NCBI GenBank assembly: GCA_002868865.1
Contig: PKUC01000020.1
Span: 1 to 58,879 of the forward strand
Reading direction: 5' to 3'
Origin: Desulfuromonas sp.
GTDB lineage: Bacteria; Desulfobacterota; Desulfuromonadia; Desulfuromonadales; Geopsychrobacteraceae
Length of the DNA stretch: 58,879 nt
Below, one piece after another: positions 1,664-11,679 of this stretch. Below the pieces are notes generated by a model. It was not told the DNA's origin, did not search any database, and worked only from the letters and a program-made list of their open reading frames with translations. Every line of letters starts with the position of its first letter. Position 1 is the first letter of the stretch. The translations under genes and the position numbers were made by a program.

Positions 1664-3466
1664 TCAATCGACATCGAGTATTCCGAGACGACGCAGGCGG
1701 GTCACCAGCTGCACACCGCTGTCGCTGGCAAAAAAGGTCTGAAGATTCTCCGCCGACCGTGCACTGACTCCGTCGATCGCCGCCAGTCGGGCGGGACCGG
1801 CCAGACGCAGTTCATCGAGTGTCTCAAACTCACGGGCCAGCTTTTGACAGGTCTTGGGGCCAACTCCCGCGACACCGATCGCGCTGAGCAACTGTGCCAG
1901 GTCGGGCCGATTGTTCGCACGCAGCACGGCACCGATCCGTTCTGCCCGCACCGTCCCAAAACCGGGCAGCGCCACCATACGGGGCACCTGCAGCTCAAAA
2001 AACGACGGCAGATCGCCGATCAGTCCCGCCTCGACCAGCTGAGACACCCGCCCCTCGCCGAGCCCGGACAGCCCTAACTGCTGAGCAAAATAGACAGCAC
2101 GGGCAACAAACTGCTGATGACAACCGTCACTATCACTGAAACAGGCACCAACTTCCGGCGGCAGAAGATACTCCGGCGGGATAATCACCCCAGCGTCGCC
2201 TTCGGGACGATCGACAACATCAACGATCTGTGGGACGGTATCACCTTTGAGCGCTACAACCACACGGCAACCGGCCGTGACCCCGAGGCTGCGCAGGGTG
2301 TCGATATGATGAAGGGACGCGCGAGACACCTGAATCCGCCCGATCTTGACCGGATCGAGCAGGGCAATCGGCGTCCGTTTTCCGGTTCGTCCGATGCGCC
2401 ATTCGAGGTCGGTCACCCGGGTGACCGCGGTCGCGGGCGGAAACTTCCAGGCCGCGGCCCAGAACGGAAACCTCTCTCCGAGACCAAGGCGCCGTTGTAG
2501 ATCCAGACGATCAACCTTGATAACGATCCCATCGGCGGCAAAAGGGAGGTCGGCCCGGTGGGCCAAATACTCACGATAGAGGCTACGAACCTGATCCACA
2601 CCTTCGACCACCTCGGTCTGCTCCAAAAGGACAGGAAGCCCCCAGCGCGCCAATCGTTCGAGGCCACGCAGCGCTGAATCCACGTCGAGCACCTCGGCAT
2701 TGACCAGCTCGAACGGAAAAAACCGCAGGGTTTTCAAGGCCCACCCCCGCGGATGTTTGGCCCGCAGGGTCGCCACGGCCAGATGCCGCGGTGACGCATA
2801 GCGATCGTCCTCGTTCTGCTGCGCATTATTTCCTGCGATGAATTCCGGAAGCACTGCATAGACCTCACCGCGCACCACCACCCGCGGCGGAAACGGTGCC
2901 CGCAACATGACCGGAACGCCCTCTATCTCACCGACACGTGCCAAAACATCCTCACCCAACAGCCCATCGCCGCGGGTCGCTGCCGAAACCAGTTTGCCCT
3001 GCACATAGGTCAGTTCGACCGGAAGACCATCGACCTTCGGTTGTGCCAGAAATCGCAGCCGCTCGCCGGGGTTCAGCTGTTCAATCCTTTCAAAAAGGGC
3101 CACCACCGCACTGTCATCCGACGATGAATCGAGACTCAACATCGGCTGAGAATGGGCAACGGTCAGATGTTGCGCTGCGGCACCGCCGACCGACCGGGTC
3201 GGTGAATCAACCGCAGCCAGTGCAGGAAAACAGGATTCGAGCTTCCGGAGCCGGACATGCAGCAAATCGTATTCACTGTCGCTGACGATCGGCTTTGCCT
3301 GTTGGTAATAGAGACGGTCATGAAAACGGATATCATCGCTGATGGATGTCATCTGCCGTTTGACTTCGCCATGGGATAGCGACGGACAACTGTCCACGGC
3401 ATTTGCGGCAGAAACCAGAACCACGATGAGGAATGAAACGAATAGAACAATACGGAATATACGCAT
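1664..3466 (-). CDS. ligB: LigB-type NAD-dependent DNA ligase with signal peptide
   Basis: A 600-residue NAD+-dependent DNA ligase. It has an Ia-like segment (YYQQAKPIVSDSEYD), the adenylation motif K-V-D-G with K144 as the likely AMP-accepting lysine, an OB-fold region, and a helix-hairpin-helix C-terminus. It lacks the Cys4 zinc finger and C-terminal BRCT domain of LigA, which fits the LigB branch. ATG 3466 was chosen because AGGAGG lies just upstream; a longer frame opens at 3562 without such a site. The N-terminus is hydrophobic from about residue 4 to 22 and ends in A-N-A, a credible Sec signal peptide. E. coli LigB also has a signal-like N-terminus. Nicks sealed by this enzyme may lie outside the cytoplasm; this is inference. 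Confidence 0.85.
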   Translation of the reverse strand: MRIFRIVLFVSFLIVVLVSAANAVDSCPSLSHGEVKRQMTSISDDIRFHDRLYYQQAKPIVSDSEYDLLHVRLRKLESCFPALAAVDSPTRSVGGAAAQHLTVAHSQPMLSLDSSSDDSAVVALFERIEQLNPGERLRFLAQPKVDGLPVELTYVQGKLVSAATRGDGLLGEDVLARVGEIEGVPVMLRAPFPPRVVVRGEVYAVLPEFIAGNNAQQNEDDRYASPRHLAVATLRAKHPRGWALKTLRFFPFELVNAEVLDVDSALRGLERLARWGLPVLLEQTEVVEGVDQVRSLYREYLAHRADLPFAADGIVIKVDRLDLQRRLGLGERFPFWAAAWKFPPATAVTRVTDLEWRIGRTGKRTPIALLDPVKIGRIQVSRASLHHIDTLRSLGVTAGCRVVVALKGDTVPQIVDVVDRPEGDAGVIIPPEYLLPPEVGACFSDSDGCHQQFVARAVYFAQQLGLSGLGEGRVSQLVEAGLIGDLPSFFELQVPRMVALPGFGTVRAERIGAVLRANNRPDLAQLLSAIGVAGVGPKTCQKLAREFETLDELRLAGPARLAAIDGVSARSAENLQTFFASDSGVQLVTRLRRLGILDVD

Positions 3467-3651
3467 GGACCCCCCTCCTGCGGAAATAAGACGTGTATTG
3501 CCCCCTAGAATCGCAAACCCACATAAAAAACACAACAAAAAGCGTCTTAAGCCAAAAAACATTGGCCTCCATTGATCGTATTATCTATATTGTTTTTAGT
3601 TTTTTTTTGCGGAAACCTAGGCTGAAATATAAGTTCGGAGGATACTGAACA

Positions 3652-4287
3652 TTGAACAGTGGGATAATCGAGCAATTCGAGCAGGCTCTGCTGGCGATGG
3701 ATCGCATAGAAGCACAACGGATTCTTACCCGCGCCGCAACAAAACAACAGACCCTGCAATATATTGAAGATATTGTCGTTCCTGTCCTGGAACGGATCGG
3801 TCTCAAATGGGAACAGGGACATATCCCACTGGCCCAAATCTACATGAGTGGCCGTATCTGCGAAGAACTGATCGATTCATTCTTGCCCGAAGCATCTCCA
3901 GAGCGCATCTCCCACCCCAAAATAGCCATCGCCATTCTCGATGATCATCACCTGCTCGGCAAATCGATCATCAGTTCGGTACTGCGCGCCAGTGGAGTCG
4001 CCCTTGAAGACTTCGGCACGCAGGATAGTGACGGTCTGGTGGAAGAAACTCTCAAAAAAGACATTGATATCCTTTTGATTTCGGTCCTCATGCTCGCTTC
4101 AGCGCATCACATCACAGACGTAGTGGCCCGCCTCAAAGAACAAAAACCATCGATCCGCCTGATTGTTGGCGGGGCACCGTTCCGTTTTGATACCGAACTG
4201 TGGCGAACCGTTGGAGCGGACGCGACGGGACATAATACCAACGAGGCTATTCAAGCCACCTGGAAAATGATCGAGGAGCTGTCATGA
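3652..4287 (+). CDS. Corrinoid (B12-binding) methyltransferase-type protein
   Basis: A 211-residue protein with the two-part layout of methanol/methylamine corrinoid proteins (MtaC/MtbC/MttC): a helical cap (residues 1-85) and a Rossmann-like cobalamin domain. The B12 signature D-x-H-x-x-G is seen as D98-H-H100-L-L-G103, so H100 is the likely lower axial cobalt ligand. A G-G motif near residue 173 matches the nucleotide-loop site. The start is TTG 3652, preceded by GGAGG with 10 bases of spacing. The stop overlaps the next gene's ATG by four bases, so the two are translationally coupled. No cobalamin riboswitch is visible in the 185-base leader. It should carry methyl groups for, or form a complex with, the next protein. 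Confidence 0.88.
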   Translation: MNSGIIEQFEQALLAMDRIEAQRILTRAATKQQTLQYIEDIVVPVLERIGLKWEQGHIPLAQIYMSGRICEELIDSFLPEASPERISHPKIAIAILDDHHLLGKSIISSVLRASGVALEDFGTQDSDGLVEETLKKDIDILLISVLMLASAHHITDVVARLKEQKPSIRLIVGGAPFRFDTELWRTVGADATGHNTNEAIQATWKMIEELS

Positions 4288-5324
4288 GCACACCGGCGAT
4301 GACGTCCCTTGAACGGGTACTGACCACTCTCGGCCATCAGGAACCGGACAGAGTGCCTCTGTTTCTCCTGCTGACAATGCACGGCGCCAAAGAGCTGGGG
4401 ATGTCGATTCGAGACTACTTTTCACGTGCGGATCATGTCGCCGAAGGACAACTGCGCCTGCGTGAAAAGTATCAACACGACTGCTACTACTCGTTTTTTT
4501 ACGCGCCCCTTGAGGTCGAAGCCTGGGGTGGAGACGTTCTCTACGTGGAAGATGGTCCGCCCAACTCCGGACAGCCGTTTATTCAGCATCCGTCGCAGAT
4601 TGAAAAACTGACCGTCCCGGACATGGACACCCCTTGTCTCCAGAAGGTATTGGACGCAACCGCAACGATAAAAAAAGAGATGCCCAGCGAAGCACCCATC
4701 ATCGGCGTGGTGATGTCACCCTTCTCGCTGCCGGTCATGCAGCTCGGTTTTCCGGCCTATCTGGACCTGATTTATCAGCAGCCCGATCTTTTCAGCAAAC
4801 TGATGGAGATCAATCAGGATTTTTGCGTAGCCTGGGCGAATGCTCAACTCGACGCCGGAGCGACGGCGATCTGTTATTTTGACCCGGTATCTTCACCGAC
4901 TATTATCGATCGCGCCCTCTACCAACGGACGGGCCAGCCCGTGGCACGCGAGACCCTGGCACGGATCAATGGGCCCACGGCAACCCACTTGGCATCAGGG
5001 CGCAGTCTGCCCATTGTCGATGACGTGGCCGCCACGGGATCCGCCGTCATCAGCGCGACGGCTCTCGAATCTTTAGCCGACATGAAAACGGCCAGTCGCA
5101 ACAAGCTCACCGTGCTTGGCAACCTCAACGGTATCGAAATGGCCCGCTGGTCGCCGGAAGAGGCCCGAGCCAAAGTCACGGCCGCCATCGCCGCCGCTGC
5201 GCCCGGCGGGGGGTTCATCCTTTCTGACAACCACGGAGAGATCCCCTGGCAGGTCAGCGATGAAATCCTGATGACAATTTCAGAAACCGTTCGAGAATCA
5301 GGTACATATCCCCTTCTCCCTTAA
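4284..5324 (+). CDS. UroD/MtaA-family methyltransferase-like protein with altered zinc site
   Basis: A 346-residue TIM-barrel protein of the uroporphyrinogen decarboxylase superfamily, in the branch that includes the MtaA/MtbA methylcobamide:coenzyme M methyltransferases. Those enzymes bind zinc through a His-x-Cys pair and a later Cys about 77 residues on. Here the matching positions read H235-L-A237 and N316-H317, so both cysteines are missing. Classical thiol activation is therefore doubtful. It may bind methyl-cobamide without transferring to a thiol, use another acceptor, or act as a sensor partner. It is coupled to the corrinoid protein by a four-base overlap and lies 28 bases before the sensor kinase. 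Uroporphyrinogen decarboxylase (HemE) itself is unlikely in this context. Confidence 0.78.
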   Translation: MSTPAMTSLERVLTTLGHQEPDRVPLFLLLTMHGAKELGMSIRDYFSRADHVAEGQLRLREKYQHDCYYSFFYAPLEVEAWGGDVLYVEDGPPNSGQPFIQHPSQIEKLTVPDMDTPCLQKVLDATATIKKEMPSEAPIIGVVMSPFSLPVMQLGFPAYLDLIYQQPDLFSKLMEINQDFCVAWANAQLDAGATAICYFDPVSSPTIIDRALYQRTGQPVARETLARINGPTATHLASGRSLPIVDDVAATGSAVISATALESLADMKTASRNKLTVLGNLNGIEMARWSPEEARAKVTAAIAAAAPGGGFILSDNHGEIPWQVSDEILMTISETVRESGTYPLLP

Positions 5325-5352
5325 TTGCACAGTCCGGAAGCGCCGATTCATT

Positions 5353-7512
5353 ATGCCGCAGAAACCCAGAATAAAACTGGCCGTTTGTCGAAACTTTATC
5401 CCTGAAGTCACGGCTTGTCTGCAACAGTTAAAACTGAACAACATTCAGGTGCTCCCCTGGGAACCCTGCTGCGAACACCCGCCAAAGTCCTGGCAGTCCG
5501 CTGCGGAACTGATCGAAACCGACTCTTCCGCACCCGTAATGATGATAGGTGGCTGCCTGCCTACGGGGCTGACCGAGCCTCCTGAAGGGTACAAACACCT
5601 TTCCCTTTTTCCTCTGGAAAATTGTTTTCACCTGCTCAGCGGACGAACACAGGTCAATACCTTTGCCAACAACGGAAACTATCTCGTCTCATCGGGCTCA
5701 ATACTTACTTGGCGTAACCGTTTGCACCATTGGGGCTTTAATCAAGAAACCGCCCGTCTTTTTTTCAGAGATACCACTCAAAAAATAGTCCTGCTCGAAA
5801 CCAATATCGACTGCGAATCCAGCCAGGCTCATCTGAAAGAATTTTCAGACTACGTAGATCGCCCCGTTTCAATTGAAAAAATAGGCCTCGACTACCTCAG
5901 CTTTTATCTCCGTTCGATGATCGAGTCAAAAACCAACCAGATCTTGAGTACCCGGATGAAAATGCTCCAGGAGCAGACCGCCAATCAGATGATGGCGCTT
6001 GACCTGTTTGATGCCCTGATCGACAAACCCACCGAAGCGGAGGCCATCGAGGGAGTGTGTGAGCTGTTCCGCACCCTATTTGCACCTCGTGATGTCCGCT
6101 TTTCACACCATTGGGCAACAGGCCAAGACACCTCTTACGATGGAAAACCCTGCAGTTTCGCAGACCGCCTGCGACTGTCGCGAGGCGAAAAGTTTGTCGT
6201 CCACAAGGGGCGACAGGGTTTCAGTCTGACCCTGCAAAGTCAATCTCTCAACATCGGGCACATCGATATCGTTCAGGTCTCCTTCCCCGAGCACCTCAAC
6301 CGTTACCTGAACTTAGCGCTCTCGCTCATCCCCCTGTGCACCCTCGGTATCCATAAAGGACGCATGTCTGAAGACCTGAAACGTGAGATGGATTCCCTTG
6401 TCAAGATGACAAGAGAATTGGGTGAAAGTGAAAAACGCTTCCAACTCGCCTTTATGACCAACCCCGACCCAACTGTCCTGATCCGCTTGGAAGATGGCGC
6501 CCTGCTCCATGCCAACAGAGCTTTCACCGAATCGATCGGCGTGACACCGGCAGGATTGAACGGGCTTGAGTTTGCAACCCTCAATTTCTGGATGCAGCCA
6601 GAAGAACCTGGGAACATTCTCAACCTCCTGCGCAGTGCAGAGGATATTGACCGCATGGAGGTATCAACCAGAAACTGCTCAGGAGAACCGATCGACTACC
6701 AGTTAAGCGCCCGGCAGCTATCGCTCAAAAATGAACCCTGTGGGCTCATTTTTATGCACAACATTACCGCTGAAAAAACGGCCGAACAGATCCTGCGTGA
6801 TTCAAACCGGGTGAAGAACGAGTTCATCTCGATGGCAGCTCACGAACTGCGGACTCCGCTCAGCACGATGATGGGATTTACTGAATTTTTGATGGAACCG
6901 GAAAACTACGGGGGGTTTACCGAAGAGCAGAAGCAGGAGTTTTTAGCCGATATTTACAGCAGGGGGGAATCTCTGAACCGGATCGTCGACGATCTGCTCG
7001 ATGTCAGCCGGATCGAAAGCGGTCGTCCGCTGACCCTCGATTTTCAAACCCACGATCTGAAAAAGATGGTCGAGAAAACCGTCGCAGACTACCAGGTTCA
7101 CAACAGCGGGCATCGGTTCGAAACCAGAATTCAGGACCCGAACTCACCCGCACCATTAAGTTTCGACCTGTACCGGACAAAACAGGTCATCGAAAACCTG
7201 CTGAACAACGCGCAAAAATATTCACCTGAAAATCGACACATCATCGTCAGCGTCCACCAGGCTCAACATGCGTGGGAGATTCAGGTTTCCGACCAAGGAT
7301 TCGGCATGACCCCGGATCAGGTGCAGCGCATCTTTGATAAATTTTACCGGGTCGATTCTTCAAACACGGCCATCCAGGGTCTGGGACTCGGCATGAGTAT
7401 CGTCAAGCAGATCGTCGAAGCCCACGGTGGTGAAATCGATATCGACAGTACCAAAGGCGTCGGCACCAAGGTGACAGTCCGCTACCCTCTGACAGGCACC
7501 AAAAAGGATTGA
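5353..7512 (+). CDS. Sensor histidine kinase with DUF1638-like N-terminus and PAS domain
   Basis: A 719-residue protein without obvious membrane spans, so probably cytoplasmic. Residues about 1-190 resemble DUF1638, a domain often encoded near corrinoid methyltransferases. The stretch G-G-C-L-P-T-G and the following F-P-L-E-N-C and G-N-Y-L-V-S-S-G match its conserved pattern. Residues 200-345 hold an unassigned, possibly GAF-like, region. A PAS domain spans about 365-475, and the HisKA H-box has the phospho-acceptor H497 in A-A-H-E-L-R-T-P. The HATPase N, G1 (D-Q-G-F-G-M) and G2 (G-L-G-L-G-M) boxes follow near 600-715. No response regulator lies beside it. The gene order implies sensing of the corrinoid or methylation state; this is inferred. 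Confidence 0.8.
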   Translation: MPQKPRIKLAVCRNFIPEVTACLQQLKLNNIQVLPWEPCCEHPPKSWQSAAELIETDSSAPVMMIGGCLPTGLTEPPEGYKHLSLFPLENCFHLLSGRTQVNTFANNGNYLVSSGSILTWRNRLHHWGFNQETARLFFRDTTQKIVLLETNIDCESSQAHLKEFSDYVDRPVSIEKIGLDYLSFYLRSMIESKTNQILSTRMKMLQEQTANQMMALDLFDALIDKPTEAEAIEGVCELFRTLFAPRDVRFSHHWATGQDTSYDGKPCSFADRLRLSRGEKFVVHKGRQGFSLTLQSQSLNIGHIDIVQVSFPEHLNRYLNLALSLIPLCTLGIHKGRMSEDLKREMDSLVKMTRELGESEKRFQLAFMTNPDPTVLIRLEDGALLHANRAFTESIGVTPAGLNGLEFATLNFWMQPEEPGNILNLLRSAEDIDRMEVSTRNCSGEPIDYQLSARQLSLKNEPCGLIFMHNITAEKTAEQILRDSNRVKNEFISMAAHELRTPLSTMMGFTEFLMEPENYGGFTEEQKQEFLADIYSRGESLNRIVDDLLDVSRIESGRPLTLDFQTHDLKKMVEKTVADYQVHNSGHRFETRIQDPNSPAPLSFDLYRTKQVIENLLNNAQKYSPENRHIIVSVHQAQHAWEIQVSDQGFGMTPDQVQRIFDKFYRVDSSNTAIQGLGLGMSIVKQIVEAHGGEIDIDSTKGVGTKVTVRYPLTGTKKD

Positions 7513-7542: not shown

Positions 7543-8181
7543 CTACTGATACAAACGGTCATCCATCATCATCGTTTCAAACACCTCAGCCGGTGAGTGA
7601 TCCCCGTTCTCCGTCAATTCCTTCAAGGTGACATCTCCCGATTCGATCACATACCCCTTGTCGCGCAGATGGTCGATAGCACCCTTGAGGCTAAAATCGA
7701 TCCGCTTGGCCAGCTGTTTCAATGGCATCAGTTCAGCGTGCGGAAACGGTGGATGAACGTCCTGCCCGTCATACCAGCTGCCTTTAAGGGTTTTCCCCAG
7801 ATCCATCACTGAACCGAACGGCACATAACCGACGATACTGCCGTGCAGACAGATCAGACTCAGCACAAGCGCGGCGATAAACTCTTTGCGGAGGGAAAAC
7901 GATCGTTTCAGGCGATCCTTTAGATAGGACAACAAGGCCCGCCAGTTGAAATAGAGGTGAAAGCAGGATCCGACAAAGAAGATCAGGCTCAGGCAGGTGT
8001 GCATGGTCCCCCACTGCTCTTTGTCGAGGGCAAACAGGTGCCACGCCGTCCAGTAGGCGATGCGCCCTTCGGGCATCACGTAGATCACCACCCCGGAAAC
8101 AACCATCGCCAGGCCACTGAAGGTCACCAGCAACGACACAAATCCACGAAAATTGAAAGGAGCCGTTTTACCGTCCTGCAT
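7543..8181 (-). CDS. DUF4405-like membrane protein, possible heme b protein
   Basis: A 212-residue integral membrane protein with three hydrophobic segments (about residues 10-35, 60-82 and 100-125) followed by a soluble C-terminal tail of about 85 residues. Histidines occur at the ends of or inside the helices (A-W-H-L-F, M-H-T-C and C-F-H-L-Y), as in the small cytochrome b-like DUF4405 family, so a heme or electron-transfer role is possible. The soluble tail resembles a small helical domain without clear assignment. The ATG lies inside the end of pgi (14-base overlap), preceded by GGGAG, so translation is coupled to pgi. It converges on the kinase gene 30 bases away. Function unproven. Confidence 0.65.
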
Positions 8182-9820
8182 TGTTTAACTCCCGATAATA
8201 CTTGATCAGACCGGCGGTCGATGGATCGTGGGTATCGGCCGGCGGCCCGGCCTGCAACTCGGGAAGGATCGCTCCGGCCAGCACCTTACCGAGTTCGACC
8301 CCCCACTGGTCGTAAGAATTGATATTCCAGAGCGCGCCCTGGACAAAAATCTTGTGCTCGTACAGTGCGATCAACATCCCCAGCATCTCCGGAGTGAGCT
8401 TGGGAAACAGAAAGCTGTTGCTCGGCCGGTTCCCGGGGAAAACCCGGTGCGGCAATAGCCGCACAATCTCGTCTTCAGCGATACCTGCGGTCTGCATCTC
8501 CTGACGGACCTCCGCAGCGGTTTTTCCTCGCATCAAGGCTTCGGGTTGGGCGAAGAAGTTGGACATCAGGATGCGGTGATGATCACCCAGATCGTTATGG
8601 CTGATCGCCGGGGCAATAAAGTCGGCGGGGACCATCTGCGTTCCCTGGTGAATCAGCTGATAAAACGCATGCTGGCCGTTGGTCCCCGGCTCGCCCCAGA
8701 GCACAGGGCCGGTGGCATGATCGACCACTTCTCCATCGCAGGTGACCCCCTTGCCGTTGCTCTCCATATCGCTCTGCTGCAGATAGGCGGGAAAGCGATG
8801 CAGATACTGGTCATAGGGCAGCACCGCGTGGGTTCTGGCATCGAAGAAGTTGCAGTACCACAGCCCCAGTAGGGCCATGATGACCGGAATATTCTGCTCC
8901 AGTGGAGCGGTGCGAAAATGTTCATCGACCCTGTGGGCCCCGCTCAGCAGGTCCTCAAAACGTTCCATCCCGATCACGAGGGCTATTGCCAATCCAACTG
9001 CCGACCAGAGCGAATAGCGCCCGCCGACCCAGTCCCAGAATTCAAACATGTTGTCCGCATCGATCCCGAACGCCGTCACCCGTTGACGGGCTGTGGACAC
9101 CGCGACAAAATGCTGGCCGACCGCAGCTTCTCCCGCCCCGGAGGCCAGTAGCCAGTCCTTTGCAGAATGGGCGTTACACAACGTTTCCTGGGTTGAAAAG
9201 GTCTTTGACACAACCAGAAAAAGGGTTGTCTCGGGGTTAAGTTCTTTGAGCACCTCGGTGATCTGTGTGCCATCCACATTGGAAACAAAATGCACACGCG
9301 GCGCATCTTTCGCATAGGGCTTGAGTGCTTCGCAGACCATCAACGGACCGAGATCGGAACCGCCGATACCGATATTGACGATATCGCGAATCGGCTTACC
9401 GGTAGACCCGGTCCATGCCCCGCTGCGAACCTTTTCAACAAATCGCCCCATCTGCGCGAGCACCCGGTTGACATCCGGCATCACGTCCTGCCCGTCGACC
9501 AGCATCGGTCGATTGGATCGGTTTCGCAGCGCAACATGCAGCACCGCCCGCTGCTCGGTCAGGTTGATCTTTTCACCACAAAACATCTGTTCACGCTTCT
9601 GCTCCACATCAGCAAAGCGCGCCAACTCGAACAGCAGTGACAACGTCTCGCGAGTTATCCGGTTTTTAGAAAAATCGAACAGCAGATCATCGAGTTGCAG
9701 AGAAAAGGCTGAAAAACGGTGTGGATCGGCGGCAAACAGGTCGCGCATGTGGAGTCCCGCACAAGCGTGGGCATGCGTCTCTAACTGGTGCCAGATGGTC
9801 GATTCGGTCAGACGGGTCAC
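8168..9820 (-). CDS. pgi: Glucose-6-phosphate isomerase
   Basis: A 550-residue enzyme that interconverts glucose 6-phosphate and fructose 6-phosphate in the cytoplasm. Family blocks are present along the whole length: [15 protein letters not shown], the G-I-G-G-S-D-L-G-P phosphate-binding loop, [21 protein letters not shown], and G-E-P-G-T-N-G-Q-H. The length equals the E. coli enzyme almost exactly when GTG 9820 is used. That start follows GGGAGGGG, whereas the longer frame begins with a TTG at 9847. It sits 30 bases after the ferritin-like gene and overlaps the DUF4405 gene. Confidence 0.96.
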
Positions 9821-9850
9821 GGTCCCCTCCCTCAAAAGACAGGTCAAAAC

Positions 9851-10336
9851 TCAGCCGGAGCTCTGGGCAATCCGGTAATCCTCGCTGATCAGTTCCAGAT
9901 GGCGATGGGTCATTTTTGCGTTACTCAGATAAACCTGGCGCACCGCTTCATCGTCGACCTGTTCGGCGATCTTCCGCAGAGCTTCTTCCAGTTCGGCTTC
10001 CCGTCGGATCGCCAGCGCCAGCGCTTTTTCTTCGTCAAAGTCACCCAGCAGCGTTTTTTGCAGCTCGGTCCACCAGGGGGAGTCTGTATCGGGAGGGGCC
10101 GCCATCAGTTCGTCAAACGGCGGCAGATCGTTCCAACGATAGGCATCGTAAAATGAGCGCGCGTGCTCGCGCTCTTCTCGGGACAGCAGCTTGAACGTCA
10201 ACCGCGGGCGCTCGTTGACCACCCGTTCCGCCGCGCAAAGGTAGAAATCCATCGCGTCCTTCTCGGTCTGGATCGAAGATTTAATCGCCTGTTTCAATCC
10301 CTCTTCGTCCAGCCCCGCGCCCTTCTGTCTCCACAT
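9851..10336 (-). CDS. Ferritin-like / rubrerythrin-type domain protein
   Basis: A 161-residue, mainly helical protein of the ferritin-like superfamily. The first helix pair carries E-K-D-A-M-D-F-Y and the E-R-E-H motif typical of one half of a di-iron site. Helix 3 holds R-R-E-A-E-L-E-E. The second ExxH is altered: the last helix reads K-M-T-H-R-H-L-E-L-I, with no glutamate at the usual place. The metal site may be modified or the protein may bind a single metal. There is no C-terminal rubredoxin domain. Family members handle peroxide or iron in anaerobes. The gene lies between the TerB-DnaJ gene and pgi in a minus-strand run. Confidence 0.75.
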   Translation of the reverse strand: MWRQKGAGLDEEGLKQAIKSSIQTEKDAMDFYLCAAERVVNERPRLTFKLLSREEREHARSFYDAYRWNDLPPFDELMAAPPDTDSPWWTELQKTLLGDFDEEKALALAIRREAELEEALRKIAEQVDDEAVRQVYLSNAKMTHRHLELISEDYRIAQSSG

Positions 10337-10373
10337 ACCGATATCCCCAAAAACGCTTATTGCGTTACTCCTG

Positions 10374-11135
10374 TCAGGAGCGCGCCTTCATAACCGCTTC
10401 ATAAGAGGCGTTCAACTCAGCGAGTTTGTCGTTGGCAAAGGCGATAAATTCCGGCGGAAGCCCCTTTCCCTCGATTTTATCCGGGTGAAACTCCGCCGCC
10501 TTTTTGCGGTACGCCTTCTTGATCGCGGCCGTCTCCGCGTCCTCACTGACCCCGAGAATTTCAAAATGCTCACTCAGCCCGGCAGAGGTTTTCCCGGCGC
10601 CGACAAACCGCTCATGCAGCGACCGGTAGACCGAATCGTGCAGTCGAAACGACTGCCTGGCACTGAGCAGCATCTGCTCTTCGCTGGGATGCAGAGTGCC
10701 GTCGGCCATCGCCACTTGAAACAGAAAGCTCATCATGAAGGTGCACATCTGCTGGTCCTGCTGGAACAGTTTGCCGAACTCCCGGGCATAGGTATCAAAC
10801 GAGTCAGCACTATCTTTGGCCTGAGTAAAAACATTGATTGCGTACTGCCGGGTCTGGTCATCCAATCCCAGGGTCTGACGACACACCTGCTGGATCGCCT
10901 CGATCTCGTTTTCGCAGACGCGCCCGTCCGCCTTCGCCAGCTTACCGACCATCGAAAAGGCGGCGGTAAAAAACAGCGCCTGCTTGCGCTCCGCTTCCGA
11001 ATATCCGATCCGGCTGCCGCCGCTGTTCTTCTGGGCACCCATGGTCGAACCGATAGCGGCCCCGATCACGGCACCAAACGGTCCGGCGATCATCGCGCCG
11101 ATGCCGCCGCCGATCATTCCTGAAATCCAACTCAT
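10374..11135 (-). CDS. TerB and DnaJ domain co-chaperone, DjlA-like
   Basis: A 253-residue protein. Residues 1-33 are a glycine/alanine zipper-like hydrophobic segment that may insert in a membrane. Residues about 45-170 form a TerB-like helical domain with the acidic K-A-D-G-R and M-A-D-G-T loops. Residues 187-253 are a C-terminal J-domain with H-P-D at about residue 227. E. coli DjlA has the same order of membrane anchor, TerB-like domain and J-domain, and works with DnaK. AGGAG lies 12 bases before the ATG. It is flanked by the DUF4388 and ferritin-like genes on the same strand. The client is unknown. Confidence 0.85.
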   Translation of the reverse strand: MSWISGMIGGGIGAMIAGPFGAVIGAAIGSTMGAQKNSGGSRIGYSEAERKQALFFTAAFSMVGKLAKADGRVCENEIEAIQQVCRQTLGLDDQTRQYAINVFTQAKDSADSFDTYAREFGKLFQQDQQMCTFMMSFLFQVAMADGTLHPSEEQMLLSARQSFRLHDSVYRSLHERFVGAGKTSAGLSEHFEILGVSEDAETAAIKKAYRKKAAEFHPDKIEGKGLPPEFIAFANDKLAELNASYEAVMKARS

Positions 11136-11169
11136 CGTTTCTTTTTTCTCCTGTTTTTCTTTGTAGCGA

Positions 11170-11679
11170 TCAGACCGGAACCGGCTCGTCCGGTCTGTTC
11201 ATCTCATACATCTTGCGTAACGAATTCATGATCAAACGCCCGGTAGCGATCCGGATCGTCCCCCGGCTAAGGACCGCCGGAAGCACCTCGGTAAAATTAA
11301 ACCGGCACTGCGGATGCGCGACGGTTTCGATCAGAATCAGCTCAGCCAGGCGAATGAGATTTTCGGTAAGCGCTTCACGGGGCAGATGCTGTTCCTCGAT
11401 CAGGTATTGGGTAAAGCAGATGCCACGCTTCTGGCTGTCCACCAGAGCCGACTCAACCTCGAGTTCGCTGAGGCGTCCCCCTTTCGCCAGCACCTCGCCA
11501 AAGCGCTGTCCCGGCTTACTCGAAGAGACGAAGATGATCGACCCGCCCTCGAAATAAAACGACTGGCTGAACCCTTTCCCGGCAACCACCAGTTCGCCCG
11601 ATTTATTGTTCGCCTCAAGCCACTGCAACAGATCGGGCAGGGGCATAAAACGCAGATTTCCGGTCAGTTGTGACTCCAT
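11170..11679 (-). CDS. DUF4388 (PATAN-like) domain protein
   Basis: A 169-residue protein whose first 100 residues match the DUF4388 pattern: a G-N-L-R-F start, L-P-D-L-L-Q-W-L, then K-S-G-E-L-V-V and F-Y-F-E-G-G-S-I-I-F-V. The rest is a helical region ending in L-R-K-M-Y. DUF4388 proteins are common in Geobacter-like and myxobacterial genomes and are linked to signalling or protein interaction, often with response regulators. No enzymatic residues are seen. It is the first gene of the minus-strand run that ends with pgi. GGGGAC lies close to its ATG. Confidence 0.75.
   Translation of the reverse strand: MESQLTGNLRFMPLPDLLQWLEANNKSGELVVAGKGFSQSFYFEGGSIIFVSSSKPGQRFGEVLAKGGRLSELEVESALVDSQKRGICFTQYLIEEQHLPREALTENLIRLAELILIETVAHPQCRFNFTEVLPAVLSRGTIRIATGRLIMNSLRKMYEMNRPDEPVPV

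Follow-up and report, generated by a model that had tools for sequence, protein, structure and literature searches.

Why should a corrinoid protein of the methyltransferase type be encoded in one run with a histidine kinase, with no substrate methyltransferase beside them? The locus that raises this question lies in a 58,879-nucleotide stretch of a Desulfuromonas sp. genome (contig PKUC01000020.1, assembly GCA_002868865.1; hereafter the window). An earlier note, made from the letters of the DNA alone, had described three genes there, for a corrinoid protein, an MtaA/UroD-like partner and a histidine kinase, and had suggested that the first two form the input of a sensory system. The open reading frames (ORFs) lie as it described them: the corrinoid and URO-D genes overlap by four bases (ATGA, 4284-4287), and a 28-base gap (5325-5352) separates the URO-D gene from the kinase gene. 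We consider it very likely that this trio acts as a sensory system. The idea of the corrinoid pair as sensory input is supported by a gene order conserved across phyla, by outputs that can be swapped and by regulator genes that in many homologues overlap the sensor gene, and also by how rarely a substrate methyltransferase adjoins the cassette.

A profile search of GTDB genome contigs with an alignment of the URO-D protein, in which the corrinoid and sensor genes played no part, yielded at least 313 confirmed relatives, and 80 loci were retained. Where a URO-D copy had room on both sides (71 copies), the corrinoid gene was found upstream and the sensor gene downstream in 65. Because so many copies keep this order, the corrinoid-URO-D-sensor arrangement is not chance. 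Of the six exceptions, three are Electrothrix copies in which URO-D genes are additional or rearranged, and another (L071) is an artefact of ORF calling. In the cable bacteria at L035, L051 and L052 (Electrothrix), URO-D genes are rearranged or duplicated inside the cassette. The hosts among the loci listed comprise Desulfobacterota, Nitrospirota, Chloroflexota, Bacteroidota and Alpha-, Beta- and Gammaproteobacteria, as well as Firmicutes, Riflebacteria, Verrucomicrobia, Methanomicrobiales and Methanolobus.

While the corrinoid/URO-D pair stays constant, the output of the sensor changes. A histidine kinase terminates the sensor at 49 loci, a cysteine-rich C..CK tail at 10 and GGDEF at 9, while 2 loci combine GGDEF with a separate kinase gene; among 55 full-length sensors, 39 carry HATPase_c and 10 carry GGDEF. 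Parsimony on the URO-D tree requires at least eight output changes, and at some loci (L084) DUF1638 and the GAF-kinase are encoded as separate genes. Many homologues have, immediately 3' of the sensor gene and often overlapping it by four bases, a gene for a response-regulator-domain protein that itself carries PAS, kinase or GGDEF-EAL domains. Histidine kinases and response regulators form the sole widely recurrent neighbor family (55 of 83 loci). The short C-terminal cysteine-rich tail (P.C..CK.IR.D.G.W ... C..C) stands in place of the kinase in the sensors of L009, L024, L026, L031, L033, L034, L037, L041, L042 and L056; it might be a metal-binding output.

The lack of a substrate methyltransferase, which the earlier note had seen beside the trio and extended to the absence of a complete methylotrophic pathway, holds for the host genome as a whole: a search for MttB and MtaB found neither there and was positive in the control, Methanosarcina acetivorans. 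Likewise, 34 of 44 cassette genomes are without MttB and 41 of 44 without MtaB. Blast searches with seed proteins placed MttB next to the cassette at one locus (L020), MtaB at none and RamA at two. The host encodes just two URO-D proteins, one HemE-like and the other the cassette's, and just two corrinoid-cap proteins, one MetH-like and again the cassette's. Its one RACo/RamA-like activase (G000:C107:7027-7773, L095) adjoins an alanine-racemase-like gene and may well serve the MetH-like protein (an 864-residue frame on contig C49). The earlier note had named a pattern that would speak against its reading, namely homologues always located beside a substrate methyltransferase, with a kinase gene absent or variable. 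The methyltransferases are all but missing there; the kinase does vary, but since it is replaced by other signaling outputs, this variation favors a sensor. At one locus the surroundings offer a hint at the signal, and it is the only direct one: on plasmid pAZKH of Azoarcus sp. KH32C (L008:7297-12446), a cassette with a hybrid response regulator sits between formylmethanofuran-pathway genes and a pyrroloquinoline quinone (PQQ) methanol/ethanol dehydrogenase cluster.

The corrinoid protein joins a helical cap (PF02607) to a Rossmann B12-binding domain (PF02310), which together with a D-x-H-x-x-G motif gives it an MtbC/MtaC-like domain and upholds its original identification. Because all 79 cassette corrinoid proteins carry the motif, a methyltransferase-type cobalt ligand is expected. 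Against NCBIfam TIGR02370 it scores 66.1 bits, below the curated cut-off of 215.3, and is thus related to that curated subfamily but outside it.

For its partner, the URO-D part (PF01208) of the original description stands, whereas the MtaA part does not. The protein belongs to a subfamily of its own, 58-69% identical across phyla, and scores 94.8 bits against TIGR01463 (MtaA/CmuA), below the curated cut-off of 235.4. It shares with MtaA, MtbA and CmuA the URO-D fold and a methyl-type corrinoid partner, and its best solved-structure match by sequence profile is the MtaA-type 4ay7. The zinc ligands of those enzymes, by contrast, are H-x-C and a second cysteine, and a comparison of 83 cassette URO-D sequences with Methanolobus MtaA/MtbA-like proteins as reference revealed H-x-A and a histidine in their stead. 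Because H-x-C has become H-x-A and PGCG has become DNHGE in nearly all 83, the family is not MtaA, and with these cysteines lost, thiol activation via the usual zinc site is unlikely. A metal might nonetheless be bound by H235 and H317. Mean pairwise identity falls from 62% in the URO-D protein to 50% in the corrinoid protein, 32% in DUF1638 and 29% in GAF, a gradient as expected with a constant ligand and a free output. As the best-conserved component, the URO-D protein suggests one constant ligand.

The third protein is a two-component histidine kinase, as first described: it has a PAS domain, a HisKA domain with its phosphoacceptor histidine and an HATPase_c domain. Ahead of these lies a two-domain input, DUF1638 and GAF, that the earlier note had missed. 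Residues 1-350 have no Pfam match of their own, and DUF1638 (PF07796) is not matched in the window kinase even at E<=0.1; in 51 of 55 full-length orthologous sensors DUF1638 is found at E<=0.001, aligned over the same residues. An AlphaFold2 model of the sensor input, built with 57 orthologues after one plasmid-record row had been left out, displays DUF1638, a long helix and GAF at a predicted local distance difference test score (pLDDT) of 91. In VIA-align comparisons the modeled GAF domain superposes on solved domains of this family, with Z reaching 16.6 (139 residues, 2.2 Å). Modeled alone, DUF1638 reaches a pLDDT of 93; its best Z against solved structures is 6.0, with no close relative, so that its fold does not lead us to a function. 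Four of its cysteines (12, 40, 68 and 91) are nearly invariant across homologous sensors, and Cys 12, 68 and 91 are also kept in stand-alone DUF1638 proteins. A likeness of the sensor N-terminus to Spx, seen only as weak PDB sequence matches (E 0.005), was taken as chance.

How might these parts work together? We lean, if not strongly, toward a methyl or one-carbon (C1) donor being read through the corrinoid protein and DUF1638 to the kinase. The URO-D protein would bind a small ligand, most likely such a donor, in its conserved barrel pocket and would either transfer a methyl group onto the corrinoid protein or change the cobalt state of the latter in some other way. In its loaded (or unloaded) form, the corrinoid protein would then dock on DUF1638, a domain with relatives that act alongside corrinoid proteins in methyltransferase systems. 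DUF1638 would relay this state via the coiled coil and GAF to the kinase, and the kinase would phosphorylate a response regulator encoded elsewhere. The methyl or C1 ligand, the methyl transfer, the docking of the corrinoid protein on DUF1638 and the target genes are all what we infer. More tentatively still, a stand-alone corrinoid methyl-transfer couple could serve in bacteria and archaea as a chemical probe instead of in metabolism, one that senses such a donor by reacting with it and conveys the cobalt state via DUF1638 to interchangeable kinase or cyclic-di-GMP outputs.

Several points weigh against this proposal. The ligand, the methyl transfer and the contact among the three proteins rest on inference. 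With its zinc cysteines lost, the URO-D protein may have ceased to move methyl groups. No cognate response regulator adjoins the copy in the window, as the earlier note had said: the next gene 3' of the trio is a convergent DUF4405 gene (7543-8181, minus strand), which makes the trio a closed transcription unit without a regulator, although regulators accompany the cassette in many homologues. Several cassettes have a sensor with the GAF half but without DUF1638, so DUF1638 in cis is not always required. Finally, a clear methanol-oxidation context was seen at only one of the loci compared.

The main rival, which we regard as unlikely, is a sensor of cobamide or redox state. Here the presence or oxidation state of the corrinoid (Co I, II or III; apo or holo) would be sensed, the URO-D protein would be a chaperone or pocket cap, and the DUF1638 cysteines would read redox. 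The missing MtaA-type zinc cysteines, the four nearly invariant DUF1638 cysteines and hosts that are mostly anaerobic (by record titles) are all in line with it. So is the genetic link of DUF1638 and RamA to corrinoid reactivation: cofitness ties a Phaeobacter DUF1638 gene to RamA and to a split B12-dependent methionine synthase (PMC5764234), a tie that counts for the C1-donor proposal as well, and both DUF1638 and RamA increase in Ruegeria on methylated compounds (PMC12478193). As in the trio, DUF1638 is encoded with a corrinoid protein in these split methionine synthase and glycine betaine systems, but there it is a stand-alone metabolic helper, whereas in the trio it is fused to GAF and a signaling output. 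A passive URO-D protein is hard to reconcile with its leading conservation and its invariant, pocket-like D200, S204, H235, H317 and E319, which suggest a specific small ligand. Nor does the window hold a cobalamin riboswitch before the trio, two tRNAs being all that was detected.

It is improbable that the URO-D-like protein instead reports on the supply of tetrapyrroles by binding a precursor of the uroporphyrinogen or corrin type. Its NHGEIP is closer to the LGHGILP of HemE than to the PGCGIAP of MtaA, and solved HemE structures are among its sequence-profile matches, but the best solved match and the best NCBIfam scores are MtaA-type, and the protein is constantly paired with a corrinoid protein of the methyl type that bears D-x-H-x-x-G. 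We give very little weight to a catabolic methyltransferase, such as an O-demethylase or a CmuA/MecE-type enzyme, co-transcribed by chance with its regulator: the URO-D superfamily does include the substrate methyltransferases CmuA and MecE (PMC9768040), yet no second methyltransferase, dedicated activase or pathway genes adjoin the trio, its output is exchanged around an unchanging pair, and its recurrent neighbors are signaling genes. With no MttB or MtaB in the host genome and nearly none near the homologues, a catabolic role was rejected as the leading explanation. Light sensing by the corrinoid protein as in CarH, whose B12-binding domain likewise serves regulation, is the least credible of all, for although B12-binding domains fused to GGDEF, GAF or MEDS have been proposed as photoreceptors (PMC11796333), the adenosylcobalamin signature of CarH, W-x9-EH (PMC11796333), is missing from all 79 cassette corrinoid proteins (55 have W-x9-[VI]Y), and such a model leaves the conserved URO-D partner with nothing to do. 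The corrinoid protein of the trio is, moreover, a separate protein.

Among described arrangements, the mec cassette for dichloromethane comes nearest, with the kinase MecA, the corrinoid protein MecB, the URO-D proteins MecC and MecE and the receiver MecD (PMC9768040). Like the trio, it groups the gene of a two-component kinase with those of a corrinoid protein and of the URO-D superfamily. By contrast, mec is a catabolic set with MT-II and a transporter, its expression tied to dichloromethane, whereas the trio is without a catabolic partner and its kinase gene belongs to the conserved unit. MecA senses via a PocR domain and the trio kinase via DUF1638-GAF; the domain search of the trio kinase gave no match to PocR, and no MT-II or transporter genes lie beside the trio. 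The Methanosarcina sensor kinases MsmS and RdmS are, like the trio kinase, tied to methyltransferase systems, and they rely on heme- or thiol-based sensing within their own GAF/PAS domains; unlike the trio, they are not known to use a corrinoid/URO-D input pair. Two-component sensing itself is already known. A literature search for DUF1638 with signaling and for corrinoid/URO-D sensors found no description, many subscription papers lying outside its coverage, and the system is widespread and apparently undescribed.

Related units extend the same theme. A second, distant URO-D clade follows the same plan (L014:4738-9153, L012:2547-7316 and L010:5705-9986, two of them from the window's order and class), with a split or fused DUF1638 followed by a PAS-kinase-receiver or PAS-HD output. 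The stand-alone DUF1638 in L012 and L014 had been considered as part of a metabolic trio, but the next gene encodes a PAS-histidine kinase-receiver protein, and so these units too look sensory. In a Hyphomicrobiales metagenome-assembled genome, two corrinoid sensory units stand in tandem (L089:2567-9259 and 9120-11630). The first of them, a cousin unit beside the cassette, encodes its own RACo/RamA activase together with a fused corrinoid-URO-D protein, DUF1638 and a PAS-kinase-receiver protein; the activase points to cobalt redox cycling and suggests that the cobalt must be held reduced, as in catalysis.

The trio was likely gained horizontally, because its URO-D gene occurs in one of 136 genomes of the window's own order, its URO-D protein groups in the tree with Nitrospirae copies and not with those of Geobacter, and its guanine-plus-cytosine content is 53.1% against 57.7% for the window. 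Its kinase half scores about 339 bits (46% identity) against a second kinase encoded in this genome and against kinases of relatives, versus at most 107 bits for other cassette sensors. Being closest to the lineage's own kinases, it indicates that an acquired input was probably joined to a lineage-native kinase type.

Coordinates of the trio's genes, domains and motifs in the window (aa, amino acids).
Feature	Position	Strand	Basis
Shine-Dalgarno-like GGAGG, 10 bases 5' of the corrinoid-gene TTG	3637..3641	+	sequence
Corrinoid (methylcobamide-carrying) protein, 211 aa, TTG start	3652..4287	+	ORF and domain search
D-x-H-x-x-G cobalt-ligand motif, residues 98-103	3943..3960	+	sequence; 79/79 cassette corrinoid proteins
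URO-D (PF01208) superfamily protein, 346 aa, ATG start	4284..5324	+	ORF, domain search, homologue comparison
H235-x-A237, site of MtaA zinc motif H-x-C (Cys to Ala)	4986..4994	+	H 82/83, A 82/83
N316-H317-G318-E319, site of MtaA second zinc Cys in PGCG (Cys to His)	5229..5240	+	N 81/83, H 81/83, G and E 83/83
Sensor histidine kinase, 719 aa, ATG start: DUF1638, coiled coil, GAF, PAS, HisKA, HATPase_c	5353..7512	+	
DUF1638-type input domain, residues 1-180	5353..5892	+	homologue alignment, structure model
GAF domain and flanking helices, residues 206-346	5968..6390	+	AlphaFold2 model, structural alignment
PAS-like domain, residues 374-473	6472..6771	+	PF13426, E=1.4e-5, just under gathering score
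HisKA dimerisation/phosphoacceptor domain, HELRTPL motif	6814..7023	+	domain search, sequence
HATPase_c catalytic domain	7174..7494	+	domain search

Scans of the window counted 3 promoter-like matches against 2.8 in shuffles, and 13 terminator-like matches against 4.4, the latter scattered inside genes; neither set is informative. The convergent DUF4405 gene encodes a protein that is probably membrane-bound and cytochrome-b-like. On the other side, positions 1664-3562 (minus strand) encode an NAD-dependent DNA ligase (LigA/LigB type) that gave no BRCT match and whose hydrophobic N-terminus is signal-like.

If the proposed mechanism is true, the methyl chemistry of B12 joins the ways in which microbes sense small molecules, and DUF1638 gains a role that can be put to the test, that of reading out a corrinoid protein. 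Hundreds of genomes, among them those of sediment anaerobes, cable bacteria, magnetotactic bacteria, methylotrophs and methanogens, may then sense methanol or another C1 compound that they are unable to use via the usual corrinoid pathways. For annotation, this means that corrinoid and URO-D genes need not imply methylotrophy.

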